DNA from: Piscicola geometra
Lineage: Eukaryota > Annelida > Clitellata > Hirudinida > Piscicolidae
Direction: 5' to 3'
Length of the DNA stretch: 64,000 nt
NCBI GenBank assembly: GCA_943735955.1
Contig: OX030956.1
Coordinates: 559,501-623,500 of the forward strand
This document shows positions 4,681-64,000 of this stretch, in pieces; within the stretch, counting starts at the first letter, position 1, and each line of letters opens with the position of its first letter. Position numbers and translations under genes: made by a program. The notes under the pieces were generated by a model that saw only the letters and a program-made list of their open reading frames with translations, did not search any database and was not told where the DNA came from.

Positions 4681-4751
4681 GCATCAGTGGTATAACGGTA
4701 GCATAGTTGCCTTCCAAGCAATTGATCCGGGTTCGACTCCCGGCTGATGCA
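4681..4751 (+). tRNA. tRNA-Gly (anticodon TCC), copy 1
   Basis: The 71-nt cloverleaf has a 7-bp acceptor stem (GCATCAG/CTGATGC), an anticodon loop CTTCCAA with anticodon TCC at positions 34-36, and a T arm CCGGGTTCGACTCCCGG containing the B box. There is no intron. The discriminator base is A and CCA is not encoded. A TTTT run follows at once as a Pol III terminator. The sequence is identical to the copies at 26538, 29544 and 29991. Confidence 0.97.
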
Positions 4752-32500: not shown

Positions 32501-35500
32501 TTGCCAAAATTCCCAGCTCTTCAAGATTATTTAGAAAGTACTTCTCGTTCTTTTTAAAAAGTTACTTTTGAAATCTTTTGGAAGCGGTGCCAAAACATTT
32601 TTTGAAGATTTAGCAAACATTTTATTTGGTGTTCCGGCACTTCAGAAACTGCACAATTTGTCTTTTCAGTAGCATAAAACTTTTAAAAAATATTTTTTTT
32701 AATAGTTTTTAAAGTCTTTCTCAAAGCTGAGCACGCACAGTCGCATGATTCAGCGATTCAATGCAACAGAAAAACGTAATATGTGCGTTAATAATTGACT
32801 AAGAGTACAGACTTTCCATAAAAGTTTGTTTCTTTTTTGAAAAAGAACAATTTAGTAAAAACTGAAATATCCAGGGTCACGTACTCGAAGGCAAAAACAA
32901 CAAACAGAACTCGTAAAATACTTTTTCTAAAAACCACAACAAAAGATCCACATCATCTTAAACACCGTCTCCAACACAGACTACTCCACCATCTTAATCT
33001 ACCACCACTTCCTGCAAACACCTCCCTCCACCTCACCAACAGGACTATTCTGTCAGCATGTACCTGCGGCAGGTGTGGATGGACGGCAGGTTGGCGTACA
33101 AACCAGGCGAGGGCCGCAAGAACGAAACGAGACTGGGCGTCGGCAGCTGGGACACTCTCTGGGTGCCTGACACCTTCCTGCGCAACGAGAAGAGGGCCTC
33201 CTTCCACGACGTTACACGCCACAACCGCCTCTTGAGGCTCGACTACAAAGGGGGCTTGTGGTACGTCATCAGGTAACTCCGATTCATACTGCTGCTTTTT
33301 GAAGATTTTCAGGTCTTTTTGCTCATTTGATACTACTGGTTGTACTGTTAATTATATTGTATTTTATACTTCAACTTATGTGAACTTGTTGTTGAAGTTT
33401 CTTTACGGATTTTTCGTTCCAGCAATCTTTGTTTCAGTGCTTTGCCACGTAATAAAGTGAAAGCTTTCAGGCATGTAGACAATCTACATTGTTGACTATA
33501 GTTCTAATGAAAAAATTTCTAAAAGAATAAAAAATACGAGATCATTTCATTAAAAAGCTAATATATTCAAAACTTGTGTCACAACATGAATTTCAAAGTC
33601 TTTTAAAACACCGTTATAGACATCCTTGGAGAATTTATGACTTTGACAACGCACAAATGTTTTGAAAAACACAAATAAAATATTTCCAAATGACTTTATT
33701 AAATCATAAAACATACTTACTCGCCAACTATATTGCCTGAATGAGGGTCGTGGAACGGCGAAGAAAGTTACTTTGGCACCAGGCGACATCATGTGACATG
33801 TAATTCAATCTTCAGTCACGTAGCCCAAATAAATCCCGCATCTTTTTGGATCCAGTGACTCAAACTATTTCAGTGAATTGTATTTTATAGTTATTTAAAA
33901 ATAATTATATAAAAAAAACAAAAAAGTTTATTGAAATGAAATTCAATTTGAACTGCACTCAAACTCTTCGGACTCAAAAAAGTTTTCGTGAATTTTCTTC
34001 AATTTAAAAAGCAAAAGTTTCAAAATGACAATGCATTTGACATTTCTCAAGTTCAAAATCTCTGCATCAGCATCCCATCATCACCATCTCTCCCCCACCA
34101 TCATCACCATCCCTCCACCACCATCCCTCCACCACCATCACCACCATCCCTCCACCACCATCACCACCATCCCTCCACCACCACCATCAGCATCCCATCA
34201 TCACCATCCCTCCACCACCATCACCACCATCCCTCCACCACCATCACCACCATCCCTCCACCACCATCACCACCATCCCTCCACCACCATCACCACCATC
34301 CCTCTACCACCATCATCAGCATCCCATCATCACCATCCCTCCACCACCATCATCAGCATCCCATCACCACCATCCCTCCACCATCACCACCATCCCTCCA
34401 CCACCATCACCAGGATCCCATCATCACCATCCCTCCACCACCATCACCACCATCCCTCCACCACCATCACCACCATCCCTCCACCACCATCATCAGCATC
34501 CCATCATCACCATCCCTCCACCACCATCACCACCATCCCTCCACCACCATCACCACCATCCCTCCACCACCATCACCACCATCCCTCCACCACCACCATC
34601 AGCATCCCATCATCACCATCCTTCCACCACCATCACCACCATCCCTCCACCACCATCACCACCATCCCATCACCACCATCCCTCCACCACCATCACCACC
34701 ATCCCTCCACCACCATCACCACCATCCCTCCACCACCACCATCAGCATCCCATCATCACCATCCCTCCACCACCATCACCACCATCCCTCCACCACCATC
34801 ACCACCATCCCTCCACCACCATCACCACCATCCCTCCACCACCATCACCACCATCCCTCTACCACCATCATCAGCATCCCATCATCACCATCCCTCCACC
34901 ACCATCATCAGCATCCCATCACCACCATCCCTCCACCATCACCACCATCCCTCCACCACCATCACCAGGATCCCATCATCACCATCCCTCCACCACCATC
35001 ACCACCATCCCTCCACCACCATCACCACCATCCCTCCACCACCATCATCAGCATCCCATCATCACCATCCCTCCACCACCATCACCACCATCCCTCCACC
35101 ACCATCACCACCATCCCTCCACCACCATCACCACCATCCCTCCACCACCACCATCAGCATCCCATCATCACCATCCTTCCACCACCATCACCACCATCCC
35201 TCCACCACCATCACCACCATCCCATCACCACCATCCCTCCACCACCATCACCACCATCCCTCCACCACCATCACCACCATCCTTCCACCACCATCACCAC
35301 CATCCCTCCACCACCATCACCACCATCCCTCCACCACCATCATCAGCATCCCATCATCACCATCCCTCCACCACCATCACCACCATTCCTCCACCACCAT
35401 CACCACCATCCCTCCACCACCATCACCACCATCCCTCCACCACCATCACCACCATCCCTCCACCACCATCACCACCATCCCTCCACCACCATCACCACCA

Positions 35501-38500
35501 TCCCTCCACCACCATCCCTCCACCACCATCACCACCATCCCTCCACCACCATCACCACCATCCCTCCACCACCATCACCACCATCCCTCCACCACCATCA
35601 CCACCATCCCTCCACCACCATCACCACCATCCCTCCACTACCATCATCAGCATCCCATCATCACCATCCCTCCACCACCATCACCACCATCCCTCCACCA
35701 CCATCACCACCATCCCTCCACCACCATCACCACCATCCCTCCACCACCATCACCACCATCCCTCCACCACCATCACCACCATCCCTCCACCACCATCACC
35801 ACCATCCCTCCACCACCATCACCACCATCCCTCCACCACCATCACCACCATCCCTCCACCACCATCACCACCATCCCTCCACCACCATCACCACCATCCC
35901 TCCACCACCATCATCAGCATCCCATCATCACCATCCCTCCACCACCATCACCACCATCCCTCCACCACCATCACCACCATCCCTCCACCACCATCACCAC
36001 CATCCCTCCACCACCATCACCACCATCCCTCCACCACCATCATCACCATCCCTCCACCACCATCACCACCATCCCTCCACCACCATCACCAGCATCCCAT
36101 CATCACCATCCCTCCACCACCATCACCACCATCCCTCCACCACCATCACCAGGGTTACAGCGACGTTGTCCTGTCCCATGAAACTGCATGAGTACCCAAT
36201 GGACACCCAGGTGTGCCCGATGCTGTTCGAGAGTTGTGAGTGATGGTGGGTGTGGATTGATCGGGTAGTGGTGGGTGGGTTGTGGGCGCTCTTGAAATTA
36301 TGAAATAGCGCTATATATATTTATTTATTTTACTGATTGATTGGTTGATTGATGGGTTGGTTGCTTTTGGTTAGTATTTAATAAGTTTTTCTTTGGTTTT
36401 TGTCAATTTGAAAAAATATAATATTTTAGTTGAAATGTATAAAATAGTTTTTGATAAAATTAAAGTTATCTGTTTGAGACTTTTTCCCAAAAAATGTAAT
36501 ATGTAGCTGTTTTAGCGGCCACAATTCAAATTTCAAAGCCATTCAGAATTCATGAAGAAGCGTAAATAATTTTTACAAAAAGACAAAAATATTCAAAAAT
36601 TTTGATTAACTTTTTCGAGAATTATAAATAGTTTTATTTATATATCTTTTAATTCATCTTTTAACAAATGTTTTTTCATATATTTTTAGCCATGACAGAA
36701 CGATTAAGTTTCGCAATGGTCATTATGAAAAAAATGTAAAATTAAATTAGTTTAAATTTATTTAGAAACTACGAAGTTTCGGAAGCAAGAGTGCAATCGA
36801 TTTTCAAGCGTCAACATCATCATCAGCTCTGCCATCAAGCCGGCCTCAAAGCTTTAATCCTCATCCCTCCTACCACCATCACTATAATCATAATCTCGTC
36901 ATCACTATCACCACCTCAATACTATCATTATCATAACCTCACATTCCCCTGAATGCGTCGTTTGATTTACATGCACCCACATCATCAGCGAGTATCCTCT
37001 TATTGAACCGCCATAAAGCGCCTCTTACAACGTGCCCTCAATAAGCTCCCAGAGCATTAAACATCCTCAATATATCAGCGTGTCTGCTGAGTTATTTAAA
37101 AAAAATATTCTTTATTAATCATTTAAAAGACTAAATAGTAAATGATAATATTTCATGAAACGCACCGAGTTTTAGAGAAAATTGATCGAGCAGCTCAGTT
37201 CGAGTTCGTTTTTTTAGTCTCGAGAAATGTTTGCACATCGATGAACAGCATTGTGTGAACAGCCTTGTTCTCTGATTATGTTCTTCGCCACGATTAACAG
37301 GTCTTTAAACAAAACAAATGAGTTTTATAATAGAGCTTGCAAAACAAACTACCAATGACACGAAATAACCGAAAAAACAGTGGTAAAGAATTAAAACACA
37401 AAAACGGAAATATGCACACAAAAGACCAATTACACAAACACACAATGTGCTTCACAAATACCCTCAAAATGAGCATCACAAAGACAAGCAAGCACACACG
37501 CCGAACTTCACTCCCCAGTCGGATACACTATGGACAACATATACTTTGTGTGGACAAAAAGTCCAGTGGAAATAGAGAAGAACGTGCAGCTTCCACAGTT
37601 CAAACTGCAGTCTTTTTTCCTGTACGACTGTGTACAGAACTATACAGCAGGTGAACTTATCTTTTTTATATACAATAATCATCTGTTTGCTCTATTGATT
37701 CAATTATCTTGTTCTTATTTCTTCAAGTTTTTTTTTGCTTCTTAAAACTTTTAATAAACATTGCAGATTAAAAATAGATGCATCTTTTTATTTTTGAAAA
37801 GACTGAAAAAGAAAACTTTATTTTTCTCTTGACACATCTCAACACCACACTTCTGCCTCTTTGCATCATTCATCTTTGCTTAAATATTCCCGTAAGGTCA
37901 TTTAATCTTGATTAGGACTCGATATGCCCTGCGCAGCTCTTTAAAAGTAATTACTGAAATCATTAGCTGCCGGACAGTCATCTATTGCTAATGCTGGCAA
38001 ATCAAAAGAAAGCGCTAGAATAATGGACCACTAATTGGCTGAGAGCCTGTTAAATAAGCATTATCTCGACCCTTCAAAAGAATATTTTTTTACAAAAGTT
38101 ATCTTAGAATAGTTTTAATTAAAAAAAATTTTTAAGCATGAGCTTAAATTTATAGCGGTAACTTTTTTCAAATAATTAAAATAATTCATTAAAAATTGCA
38201 AAACTTTTAAAAAACCATATCATGAACAAGATCAAAAAAACAAAAGACTCTGTTTTCGAAACAAAACAGGAGCTTTTCCATGCTTGGAAATAAAGTTTCT
38301 GCTTCGAAGAGACTTCGGCTACTTCTTCATTCAGATCTACGTGCCTAGCATGCTGGTGGTGATCCTGTCTTGGGTCTCTTTCTGGCTGAACATCGAGGCC
38401 TCACCTGCCAGAGTCTCCATCGGCCTGCTCACCGTCCTCACCATCACCACGCAGAACTCGGGCATCAACGCCTCGTTACCGCGCGTGTCGTACATAAAGG

Positions 38501-59423: not shown

Positions 59424-62400
59424 TCAGTTGGGTGACTCGTGCGGATGGGAAGTGGCAGGCAAGAGTCGGTAAGGAGGACGCTGCATGACTGCTTCGTGTG
59501 TGGTGGAGACTGGTGGTGAGAAGGGGGTCGGTGAAGCTGTCACTGTGGTGGTTAAGGGTGAAAGTGAAGGTAAAGTCACAGTGGTGGTTAGGGATGGCTG
59601 TGAGTTGAATGACGACTGAATGAGGTTTGTTGCTGTTGGAGGGGTCTCTCCTTTGGAGTCAACCATGATTAGGGAAAGTTCATCCCGTCGAGTGTTCAGT
59701 TGAGCGTCACCGACTCTTTCCTGGAAGCTGTAGTGACTTGCGCGCTGAAACGAGGGCTCAAAAATCGCGTTTTGATCACCTGAATGCGCTGTGTACTGAT
59801 TATTATCTTGAAGTTTGGACTGGGAGGATGCATGGATGGAGCTCGATGAAGGTGGATTGGACTTCGGAGGGGGATGGACCACCACCGGCTGAAGTGGAGG
59901 GGGGAGGGGGCTTGGTGAGGGATGCAGGAAAAGATGTTTGAGCGAGCGGTGGTGGTTCGAAAGACCGATGCAGTGCTTGGAAAGGCCTTTGAGAATCTTG
60001 ATCTCCCTGAGAAGTCTCTTCACATGTCCCACTTTGCTGATGCCCAGGTCCTGCAGGTTGCATCGAGTTGTGTGGCGTTGACTGTTGCAAACAAATAAGT
60101 TTTTAAAACTCTGCCAATATGAACCTTTTCAAAATGAAAAAAATACTCATAAATTTTGAGCAGAAACAACTATGAATTCGACATTAATTCTTAAACTTTT
60201 GAAACTTTCAAGCCTGAATCTCACAAAAACTGGAACTAAGCGACCAAATACCTTCAAGTCATTGCGCTGCAGATTGATCAGCTCAGCTCCATGCACCTCG
60301 TGTTTGCGGAAGTTTTCAGCATACGTTTCCAGGTCGATGGAGGCGAGCCACTTGTCGACGTCTGCCGAAGTCCACTCCCTTACGGAAGCCACTGTGGTAG
60401 TGGTCAAGTGGGTGGTGGTGAGATGGCTGATTTTGAGATGAAGCTGACCAGATAGGCGCAATTAAGCTTCTTGTCGAGAAACAAAGCAATATCATGAACG
60501 ACTAACGATTCAATCTTTCCTTCTTCTCGCTTTCCGTTCGTTTCCAATTCTTAAGAGCTTCTTCAAAAGCCTTGAAAAGAAATATTTAATTCAAGTTAAC
60601 AAAAATAATTCAATGAAAAATTATTTTTAATTTTGACTAATGAGTTATAAAGCCTCAGGTAAAAATATTTTTTTCAAGTAAAAAAAATCCCAAAAAAGTA
60701 ATTTTAATTTAGGCCAAATAGTTATAAGGTCATCAGACCCTGTCTCTGGTCAAGAGTTGGGCTCGGTTCTTGTGTCTGATCCAGATGACACCAGGGTTCT
60801 GGATCCACGCCTCTCCATCCACCTGCACGGGGATTCCTTCATCTCCTATGATCGTTATCCTCACTGACCTGCACTGCAGTCATTTACGTGGAAAGCATTT
60901 AGATGATTTCTTTAACTGGTCTTTTATATTGCTATAAACTATTTGAAAATATATAATTCAGTTTATTAATTACTGTAATGCATTTAGAAAGAATTTTCAA
61001 CTACTCATCAACTAAATCATTCACCATGACGACAATAATTTAGAACTACTCATTTACGAGTCGTCACCCAGGCAACCTGTGCAATGCGGTGTTTCTGGAG
61101 GTTGATCACTCGGGAGATGCCCAGCTGGATGCTGCCGAAGACTGCCACCACCTCGAGAATCTTGTCGTCCGAAGAAGGCGCCAGGAAGTACTGGCAAAGT
61201 GGTGTAGCGGTCTACATTTCATAGCTTCCCATTAATAGGCACGCACTTTGTACCTTTGCACTTGCCTCACAGACAGGCCCTGGATATTACCTGGACATTT
61301 CCTTTGTCTCGTGTACCCTATATAAGGAAGCTATCTTGTAAATAAAACTCTCTCTCTCTCTCTCTCTTGTGTCTCTGAACTCTTAGCTCGTTATAATTGG
61401 TGACCCGACGTGATGAGTGGGTCTCTGAAAGACGTTGTTAAAGTAGGAGGAGTTGACGAACGGGAGACAGGGCAGGATGGCGAAGAGACCTTCTGCAGGC
61501 AGTGCTAGCAGCAGGTTGCCAATTTGAGATATGATTTCCTGAATCTCTTGGTTGCTCCTCAGCGAGAACTGTATGTTGTTAGTGTTGTTAGCTTAGACTT
61601 TTGTCCCACCAACAAGAACCTCAACGTCTCCTGGAAGCCTATCTTGAAGAGGATGACAGGCACTTCGGGTGAGTGGGTGGTCAGGTGGTTGAGCACACGT
61701 GAGCGCAGATTCGAAGGAGGGCGAAATGAGGAGCAAGTGCTGCAGGTTGTGGAAGAGTTGTGGGTTGGTAATCTCACTGCCCAATGACACCCCTCCCTCA
61801 CTCCTCCCTCCATCACGCTGTAGAGACACTCACACACCAACTCCACTGTCCTCTTGATTATTGATTCGTTGCACGAGGGTGGCAAGTGAGGCTCGATGAG
61901 GGGGAAGTGGTCGCGGGAGAGATGGAGGCAGCAGTGCGCGATGATGGAGAGGCACGTGCGTTGGCCGCTGATCGAGAAGAAGTCGATGAAGATGAGGCAA
62001 GTCGCTATGCCGTCCTGCTTGAGGATGTTCTTGGCGTGTTTCTTGAAGGCGATCTGCAACACCTGCAGGAACTGCTCTATTGCCTGCAACTTATCGAGCA
62101 GGGTGGGGATGGCATCGACGAAGAGGAGCGAGTGCCTGGGCACAATGTCCACGATGTGCAGAAGAGCCCTCGACGAGTGCAGCATTATCTCGGAGTTGAT
62201 CGACTTCTTGAGAGTCTTCATGAGTGCACTGATGCACTTATTGACAGGAAACGACGCCAAAATGGCTGACGCCATTTCTCAAATTCTCTTACCAAAGATC
62301 GAGAATTGGAATAACGACATGGCGAAAAGTATCCCGTCATCATCATCATCATCATCATCTGCTGCTGCTCATCATTATCATCACCACCACAACAACAACA

Positions 62401-62966
62401 AAAACAACAACCTCACTCTCAATCTGCTAACAACAACGACTACCAGCTCATCGGACGACCCGAATACTCAACAGCCACCTCCAATCCACACAAGGTCCGG
62501 CAGAAGGGTGCATTGGGCAAAGAATTTGGAAGATTACGCAACTTGACTCATCCATTTGTCTATCAACCGTCCATCAAACATGCTAACCACGTCTTCATCA
62601 TCATTTTCAGAACTACCCACTTCTCGTCGTCATCGTCGTTTTCTCTTGCATCCTCACTCACTTTTTTGAGTTCACAAAACACTGCAACATGCACCACTGC
62701 AACATGCACCACTGCAGCATGCACCACTGCAGCATGCACCACTGCAACATGCACCACTGCAACAACAACAATTGCATCAAAAAACTGCTTCTTCGTTCGC
62801 CAGTACTTTCTGGTGGGGGAGTATCGTAGCGGTCTACATTTCATAGCTTCCCATTAATAGGCACGCACTTTGAACCTTTGCACTTGGCTCACCAGACAGG
62901 CCCTGGATATTACCTGGACATTTCCTTTGTCTCGTGTACCCTATATAAGGAAGCTATCTTGTAAAT

Positions 62967-63020
<54 letters not shown>

Positions 63021-64000
63021 TCTCTGAACTCTTAGCTCGTAATAGTGGGAAAATGAGCTGAAGTGAAAGTTCTGATATGGACTTTCATTAATCTTAAAAG
63101 CGTACAAATCAATTTATTTATTAATATGAACTTTTATTAAGCTTAAAATTTTATTTATTTATTTGTGGCGCTTAAGTCAGCAAAAAACTCACACCATCCT
63201 CCTTGAAGCCTCCCCAGAAGTTGATGCCTCCCATGTAACTGCAGTGAGCGAGAAAGCTGTCAACGCAGGTCATGATGAAGACATTTTCACGTTTTCATTT
63301 CAAGTTTTGAAACTTCCCACATCTAGAGCATTGAAATGTTTCAAAGCGATTACCTCGGAATGTTGAGGACGACAATTCCCTGGAGATTCGGCAGTGGAAT
63401 CAGCTTGCCATCGCACTCCAATCTCACCTTCTGGTCGAGGTTTTTGTGTGTTCTCTGCAGCACCTCCTTGCCTCCCAGCACTCCGTACCTGCGATATTGA
63501 TTGATTGAAGATAAAAGATGTGTCGTGAAAAAAAAAATTTGAAAAAATGTATTTAAAAATAATAATTTAAAACTGTATAATTTAAATGTATTCAAAAATA
63601 ATAATTTAAAACTGTATAATTTAAATGTATTTATATAAAAAATAACTATATTTTATTTTGAATCAGGAGAGAAGCAAGTAAATGGAATGAACGGGTCAGT
63701 TGAGCTCCTGCNNNNNNNNNNNNNNNNNNNNNNNNNNNNNNNNNNNNNNNNNNNNNNNNNNNNNNNNNNNNNNNNNNNNNNNNNNNNNNNNNNNNNNNNN
63801 NNNNNNNNNNNNNNNNNNNNNNNNNNNNNNNNNNNNNNNNNNNNNNNNNNNNNNNNNNNNNNNNNNNNNNNNNNNNNNNNNNNNNNNNNNNNNNNNNNNN
63901 NNNNNNNNNNNCTGCACCTGCAAGCTCTCACCACATCATGTTCTTGGTCCTGCTGCGGCACTTGTCGGGTGCTCCTCTCGCTTGTTGTGGAAGTCCAGGG
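59424..64000 (-). CDS. Diacylglycerol kinase, delta/eta type with SAM domain (C-terminal part)
   Basis: This kinase phosphorylates diacylglycerol to phosphatidic acid and so ends DAG signalling. Exons on the minus strand are 64000(continues)-63932, 63488-63354, 63238-63193, 61190-61077, 60873-60739, 60570-60507, 60391-60252 and 60050-59424. They encode the accessory part of the catalytic region: [63 protein letters not shown] and [17 protein letters not shown] domain follows ([20 protein letters not shown] to KVGHVKRLL), as in DGK delta/eta, where it drives self-association. A Pro/Ser/Thr-rich tail of about 190 residues ends at a stop at 59424. The exon at 63932-64000 reads FHNKREEHP and then needs a one-base shift to continue [13 protein letters not shown] 200-N gap lies in the adjacent intron, and an LTR element in the intron after exon 63193-63238. 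Confidence 0.93.
61203..61394 (+). repeat. 5' LTR
   Basis: The 192-bp repeat begins TGTAGCGGTC and contains a TATA box (CCTATATAAGG, near 61317), AATAAA (61340) and a (CT)n run. Compared with the 3' LTR it differs by about four substitutions, one single-base indel and the length of the CT run. Confidence 0.88.
61397..61415 (+). other. Probable tRNA primer-binding site
   Basis: TTGGTGACCCGACGTG follows the 5' LTR by two bases. It starts with TGG, the complement of the CCA end of a tRNA, as expected for reverse-transcription priming. The primer tRNA was not identified. A start codon (ATG 61413) follows at once. Confidence 0.7.
61470..62265 (-). pseudogene. TRIP12-like E3 ubiquitin ligase fragment (retrocopied, broken)
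   Basis: Read on the minus strand, the fragment matches the armadillo-repeat region of TRIP12/UFD4-type HECT ligases: [16 protein letters not shown], then [60 protein letters not shown], and [20 protein letters not shown]. In family proteins this stretch lies before the WWE domain. No intron interrupts it, so it derives from a spliced transcript. At least three frame changes break the reading frame, and it lacks the WWE and HECT domains, so it cannot make a ligase. It is antisense to the element that carries it and sense with the surrounding kinase gene. Confidence 0.8.
62425..62546 (+). pseudogene. Remnant of retroelement polyprotein C-terminus
   Basis: The plus-strand frame ending at 62546 contains Thr-Arg-Ser-Gly-Arg-Arg shortly before its stop. 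This type of ending is common at the tail of Gypsy-class polyproteins. It lies about 270 bp before the 3' LTR and supports the plus orientation. No catalytic domain remains. Confidence 0.5.
62682..62775 (+). repeat. 15-bp repeat inside the LTR element
   Basis: Six copies of ACTGCAACATGCACC with A/G variation (CAACATG/CAGCATG), just upstream of the purine tract. Confidence 0.9.
62813..62822 (+). other. Polypurine tract candidate
   Basis: GGTGGGGGAG directly precedes the 3' LTR, the expected place for plus-strand DNA priming. It is short and holds one T. Confidence 0.55.
62825..63043 (+). repeat. 3' LTR
   Basis: The 219-bp partner of the 5' LTR starts CGTAGCGGTC (the first base is changed from T) and has a CT run about 26 bp longer. 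The TATA box and AATAAA are conserved. Confidence 0.88.
63712..63911. other. Assembly gap (200 N)
   Basis: Exactly 200 Ns, which usually marks a scaffold join of unknown length. It falls inside the kinase intron between the exons at 63932-64000 and 63354-63488. Confidence 0.99.

Follow-up and report, generated by a model that had tools for sequence, protein, structure and literature searches.

Structure of the element and its host gene fragments

The stretch of DNA analysed here, called the window, comprises 64,000 nucleotides of the Piscicola geometra genome (contig OX030956.1, positions 559,501 to 623,500 of the forward strand), and its positions 61203-63044 form one non-autonomous long terminal repeat (LTR) retrotransposon unit holding fragments of two host genes; the C- and L-numbered loci mentioned below are places in the same genome. 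An earlier note, made from the letters of the window alone, had described this unit as a miniature LTR element with an antisense piece of a TRIP12-like ubiquitin ligase gene. The paired LTRs were confirmed on the plus strand as a 5' LTR of 193 bp (61203-61395) and a 3' LTR of 220 bp (62825-63044), the latter having a longer CT run and opening with C, versus T in the 5' LTR. With the CT run excluded, the two differ by 4 mismatches in 173 aligned bases and one indel, and a TATA-like TATATAAG was recognized in the LTR by eye. The unit is flanked by a 4-bp target-site duplication, GTGG, at 61199-61202 and 63045-63048; the 5-bp direct repeat AGTGG given in the earlier note was one base too long, the right-hand A being the final base of the LTR.

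The tRNA-type priming site and the purine tract were also found as described. The primer binding site (61398-61414, plus strand) is of the tRNA-Trp type, as judged by its match to tRNA-Trp 3' ends: tRNA-Trp genes at L057, L058, and L060 end in TCACGTCGGGGTCA, and the site is identical to this end minus one C. ARAGORN detected tRNA-Trp in three of five smaller stretches of the genome, and no tRNA on L053-L056. A 19-nt filler (61415-61433, plus strand), which contains a 12-mer one base off LTR sequence, separates the primer site from the spliced TRIP12 cDNA fragment lying antisense to the element (61434-62260, minus strand). There follow, all on the plus strand, a PRRC2/BAT2 cDNA fragment of about 137 bp in sense (62257-62393), whose initial CCAA is common to it and TRIP12; a stop-terminated C-terminal coding remnant of the element's family, in frame with the PRRC2 piece (62394-62546); a 3' untranslated region with 15-bp tandem repeats common to the family (62547-62810); and the polypurine tract, counted from the letters (62811-62824). 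Gag, protease, reverse transcriptase (RT), RNase H, and integrase are all absent from the window copy. Two separate solo LTRs were ruled out, and the LTRs are regarded as one unit because the primer site, the purine tract, the family 3' sequence, and the target duplication are all present.

The TRIP12 cargo is 827 bp of antisense, spliced cDNA corresponding to an internal piece of the mRNA, and its 239-aa antisense frame matched TRIP12 in the PDB (9gkm; E 1e-26). A genome search with 61440-62275 returned seven matches, one at the window itself and the other six all within a single gene region on C13; no other copy of the cargo was found. The parent is an intron-bearing TRIP12-like gene (C13:1890721-1901200), to six exon pieces of which window 62260-62087 and 61734-61434 align in antisense. 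The visible exon boundaries of the parent are of the GT-AG type (the donor of exon Ec by eye), and all four introns that can be seen on both sides are cleanly missing from the cargo. Over 471 aligned bases there are 32 mismatches, and the gaps in the alignment disrupt the reading frame. The intronless, frameshifted piece on the opposite strand reported in the earlier note was thereby corroborated exon by exon, and the proposed alignment of cargo with gene showed fused exons, apart from about 350 nt of mid-cargo that face masked parent sequence. Neither retained introns nor separate solo LTRs, both of which would have spoken against capture, were found within the testable portion. It is hardly credible that the block is a processed pseudogene of TRIP12, made by a long interspersed nuclear element (LINE) and inserted in a family element: the cDNA is indeed spliced, fragmentary, and antisense, but neither a poly-A or poly-T tract nor a duplication was seen by eye around it, the fragment is internal to the mRNA, the gag-protease region is missing, and the genome search found no TRIP12 pseudogene with such ends elsewhere. 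At the protein level, a second and weak TRIP12-like match was obtained at C15:6438941-6439087 (L044; 43% over 49 residues, E 7e-6).

The second host gene fragment, which the earlier note had overlooked, lies in sense and is assignable to PRRC2/BAT2. Window 62270-62393 has 96% identity to an exon at C9:1468563-1468444, and 62257-62269 was assigned to the same gene by eye. When 62262-62385 was searched against the genome, long matches occurred only at the window and at the C9 gene; 75 further matches begin at query base 64 or beyond, in repeat-like sequence. With the C9 exons as query, the 7968 best-ranked candidates were scored and one protein matched (E 6.6e-35); it comes from Helobdella robusta, is labelled BAT2 N-terminal domain-containing, and conserves a 15-residue block present in the window's PRRC2 piece. 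Pfam named no family in the C9 PRRC2 exons, nor did it find a BAT2 domain in the Helobdella protein (641 aa), and we take the C9 gene to be PRRC2/BAT2-like from the label on that protein. Across 62262-62546 the family 3' sequence continues in frame with the PRRC2 piece.

Relatives in the genome and proposed assembly of the element

Searches with the LTR revealed divergent relatives at seven places besides the window's own two LTRs; the further copies that the earlier note had suggested looking for exist as LTR relatives, and no other copy of the TRIP12 cargo was found. Relatives of the 3' part of the window copy are numerous, with 40 of 226 candidates scored. One of these, L028, measures 2.47 kb and comprises gag (DUF7041, E 5.3e-22), a stretch whose motif resembles a protease, PRRC2 cDNA, a C-terminal segment, the 15-bp repeats, a purine tract, and LTRs. 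It is flanked by a 4-bp target duplication (ATAT), duplication length having been examined in two copies, the window and L028. In all eight family copies aligned, the PRRC2 piece has neither of the two introns that the parent has at its exon borders, and from all eight the same approximately 227 nt within one exon are gone, with ends lacking GT-AG. Spliced PRRC2 cDNA was found by genome search at no fewer than 38 loci, that is at least 38, besides the C9 parent (40 of 40 candidates scored), with a query that spans one true splice junction, the first of PRRC2. Wherever structure was read, the cDNA sits after the protease and before the C-terminal remnant, and L028, L033, and L047-L051 are among the PRRC2-bearing copies. 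Five further copies were fetched, and in four of them a single open frame runs from Gag through protease and PRRC2 to the C-terminus of the family, keeps the frame native to PRRC2, and ends only where the fetched sequence ends; in the fifth, L047, the Gag-protease-PRRC2 frame is left inside the cargo.

When the PRRC2-free relative L052 was scanned in three pieces, RVT_1, RNase H, and rve scored above the curated cut-offs, and the protease (RVP) fell just short of its own (19.4 versus 20.7 bits); the order is protease, RT, RNase H, integrase. Set against L052, L028 has PRRC2 in place of about 2.7 kb, from the end of the protease to the C-terminal region, and the switch from protease to PRRC2 falls within 9 nt, GTGGACAAC, that element and PRRC2 have in common. 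The CHCC Gag motif was present in three of the four family copies scanned (L033, L048, and L049) and not in L028. With its DUF7041 Gag, the CHCC motif, and the Ty3-type polymerase of a relative, the family reads as Ty3/gypsy, and the window copy is best described as a derivative of this larger family. The pooled ratio of nonsynonymous to synonymous differences (pN/pS) was 0.51 for the PRRC2 part versus 0.31 for gag-protease (78 non-independent pairs from 13 copies), and there is weak evidence that the PRRC2 part may be under constraint.

Primer sites vary within the family: in the leaders of L028, L047-L051, L054, and L056, the tRNA-Trp type occurs in some copies, and sites of the L028 type fit tRNA-Trp over about the first 12 bases only. 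No further captured host genes were found at the four gag-less loci with 3' family sequence, among the best 150 of 176 candidates; the locus on C8 has a tandem array, those on C4 and C2 have polymerase remnants, and L029 adjoins sequence that we take to be a LINE. Tandem arrays were also observed in PRRC2-bearing copies. At L027 (3866-7248), a family element has a 3.3-kb array separating its PRRC2 region from its 3' region, and at C8:1460500-1463880 (L062, L006) a short-unit array of about 2.6 kb replaces or cuts off the gag side of such a copy.

The account that best fits these results, to which we assign a probability of roughly 80%, is that of a non-autonomous Ty3/gypsy element of the CsRn1 type (a placement by shared features) which arose through two captures of host mRNA, PRRC2 before TRIP12. 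In the first step, evident from the compared sequences, a sense-oriented piece of spliced PRRC2/BAT2 mRNA displaced the RT-RNase H-integrase region of an ancestor and was joined to the protease in one reading frame; the PRRC2-bearing copies were presumably moved by enzymes of PRRC2-free relatives. In the second step, gag-protease and most of PRRC2 would have been lost while a spliced TRIP12 fragment entered in antisense. The resulting product lies in the window, with the 19-nt filler on the primer site side and CCAA, present in both genes, on the PRRC2 side. The third step, integration with a 4-bp duplication, placed the element 12 nt upstream of what reads as a diacylglycerol kinase (DGK) exon. 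Because the family 3' sequence is in frame with the PRRC2 piece, the window copy would most simply descend from a PRRC2-bearing ancestor, and this ancestor most simply predates the 227-nt loss. Of the proposal in the earlier note that template switching onto TRIP12 mRNA replaced gag-pol, the capture of spliced antisense TRIP12 sequence is supported, but replacement in one step is not, since in the family PRRC2 had already replaced the polymerase.

The orientation of TRIP12 bears on the route of the second step. By the order of reverse transcription, switching onto mRNA during minus-strand synthesis yields a sense insert, and the ordinary template switching onto TRIP12 mRNA assumed in the earlier note does not match the antisense insert found. 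A switch during plus-strand synthesis is therefore the simplest reading: plus-strand strong-stop DNA (LTR and primer site) would have been extended on co-packaged TRIP12 mRNA, and the extended strand would have gone back to minus-strand DNA at CCAA. Such a route would fit because the foreign sequence starts at the end of the primer site, which is the 3' end of strong-stop DNA. We tentatively regard this misplaced plus-strand transfer as the likeliest single route, at somewhat less than even odds. Minus-strand switching could instead have used a spliced antisense TRIP12 RNA, or the reverse-read RNA of an older retrocopy, as its template. This would have the merit of following the same standard route as LTR captures described in the literature (PMC5408686), but antisense transcripts of the gene would not splice at the sense GT-AG sites and the genome search turned up no second TRIP12 cDNA, which makes this origin improbable.

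Somewhat less improbable, though still unlikely, is a patch in situ, in which a free TRIP12 cDNA filled a break in an integrated element and replaced gag-protease together with part of PRRC2. A patch permits either orientation, the short shared bases and the 19-nt filler are compatible with end joining, and a single copy of the cargo was found. However, break repair does not predict a join right at the end of the primer site, and a patch predicts an LTR divergence at least equal to that of the cargo, whereas 4/173 was observed for the LTRs versus 32/470 for cargo and parent (Fisher p 0.03). Because the divergence of the cargo exceeds that of the LTRs, the capture would be older than the last integration if rates are comparable, and it seems to have preceded it.

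Several points weigh against the two-capture account and its proposed route. The divergence test counts four LTR changes, with parent constraint, RT error, and LTR conversion uncontrolled, and about 350 nt in the middle of the cargo (window ~62086-61735) lie outside the comparison with the parent, where C13:1894681-1899680 reads N. The window's PRRC2 piece holds sequence absent from the eight family copies and is full length only at the window and in the parent gene; it may be an independent second capture of PRRC2. The plus-strand transfer is read from a single copy, it leaves the 19-nt filler without explanation, and leaders past the primer site vary among relatives. As to the integration step, the DGK gene is putatively identified from one sub-threshold Pfam match.

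Insertion site and possible antisense output

The exon next to the 5' LTR (61060-61190, minus strand; 61060 is approximate) lies downstream of the host intron in the sense of the gene. It matched DAGK_acc (PF00609) with E 1.2e-4 and 22.9 bits versus a curated cut-off of 27, and its acceptor CAG is at 61193-61191. The stretch holding the preceding exon (63175-63294, minus strand) gave no Pfam match, and we take it and the neighbouring exons to be putative DGK exons; a SAM match, also sub-threshold, lies further along the gene. On these sub-threshold grounds, the element appears to be inserted in an intron of a putative DGK gene read on the opposite strand. This intron would measure 156 nt without the element and measures 2002 nt with it, and 13 of the 20 nt that precede the acceptor AG are pyrimidines, versus 16 without the element. 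Neighbouring TRIP12 exons were rejected as the source of the cargo, the flanking gene reading as DGK. A 200-base stretch of N (window 63712-63911) adjoins the kinase gene exons. Elsewhere, the window contains five tRNA-Gly (tcc) genes on one strand (at 4681, 26538, 28900, 29544, and 29991) and large minisatellites at 1-947 and 34075-36151, the latter with three frames open for more than 700 codons.

RNA driven from the LTR would be antisense to TRIP12 and to the kinase gene alike. That the element is a source of antisense useful to the host, its RNA or small RNAs regulating TRIP12 as Pxyfem does in the diamondback moth, would agree with the orientation of the cargo and the TATA-like motif, and a parallel is described for PIWI-interacting RNAs (piRNAs) of an antisense retrocopy (PMC9674220). 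The cargo, however, is single-copy, 7% diverged, and frameshifted. There is no clear sign of its being kept, because 18 of the 31 changed codons alter the amino acid, even though 15 of the 32 changes are at third positions (7, 10, and 15 changes by codon position), and a regulatory role of this kind is very unlikely. As a broader possibility, less probable than not by a clear distance, mis-transfer of plus-strand strong-stop DNA to host mRNA could be a distinct capture route and a general source of antisense or piRNA genes directed at host mRNAs. If so, it would routinely yield antisense host sequence beside an LTR promoter.

Comparison with known systems

The CsRn1/PwRn1 clade is described as having a tRNA-Trp primer site and a CHCC Gag motif, with a 4-bp target duplication in PwRn1 (PMC2582038). 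The window element shares the tRNA-Trp site and the 4-bp duplication, and its family the CHCC motif; unlike those elements, the window copy has neither Gag nor Pol, and the family has PRRC2 in place of the polymerase. The earlier note had placed the element among terminal-repeat retrotransposons in miniature (TRIMs), whose defining feature is an interior without coding remnants or host genes. This assignment was rejected: one TRIP12-bearing copy was found, derived from a larger Ty3/gypsy family, and no amplified miniature family, and its interior consists of two host cDNA fragments, a coding remnant, and family 3' sequence. The likeness to PbTRIM of the harvester ant, reported as a small non-autonomous LTR element with a 4-bp duplication (PMC3532108), is confined to those three traits.

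Acquisition of host genes by LTR elements is known, with 672 captured genes reported in rice and 1,343 in sorghum (PMC3726574). Bs1 of maize, in which segments of three host genes are described as fused into a new reading frame (PMC13317346), resembles the window element in carrying segments of more than one host gene. It differs in that the present case is an animal element of CsRn1 type, one of its two fragments is antisense and replaces gag-protease, and the same genome holds a PRRC2-free relative with polymerase as well as many PRRC2-bearing copies. Tan and co-workers described LTR-mediated retroposition in animals, in which host mRNA is taken up by switching at microsimilarity (as cited in PMC5408686), the route also given for Pxyfem (PMC9674220). 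Microsimilarity is likewise seen here at GTGGACAAC and CCAA, while the join of primer site and TRIP12 has a filler instead, and, unlike in those cases, two genes were captured successively in opposite orientations.

A literature search on TRIP12 and PRRC2 found, among the titles listed, none about such an element, which is not proof of absence; what is new is the two-step, two-gene, two-orientation form. Stepwise intermediates of LTR gene capture are rarely found together, and the present genome offers an unusually complete snapshot of host-gene pick-up by mobile elements: the order, junctions, and direction of the captures can be read because polymerase-bearing, PRRC2-bearing, and TRIP12-bearing forms share one genome. 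The PRRC2 fusion further raises the question of whether the element benefits from a host segment.

The nearest parallel for the antisense capture is Pxyfem of Plutella xylostella, reported as an antisense, spliced, partial PxyMasc cDNA joined to LTR-element sequence, multicopy, W-linked, and piRNA-linked, with a 4-nt shared switch point and LTRs that were not identifiable (PMC9674220). The window element likewise combines antisense spliced host cDNA with a 4-nt shared switch point. In contrast to Pxyfem, it is single-copy, retains LTRs, primer site, purine tract, and target duplication, and is known from sequence alone, and it bears in this way on the origin of LTR-linked antisense regulators such as Pxyfem.

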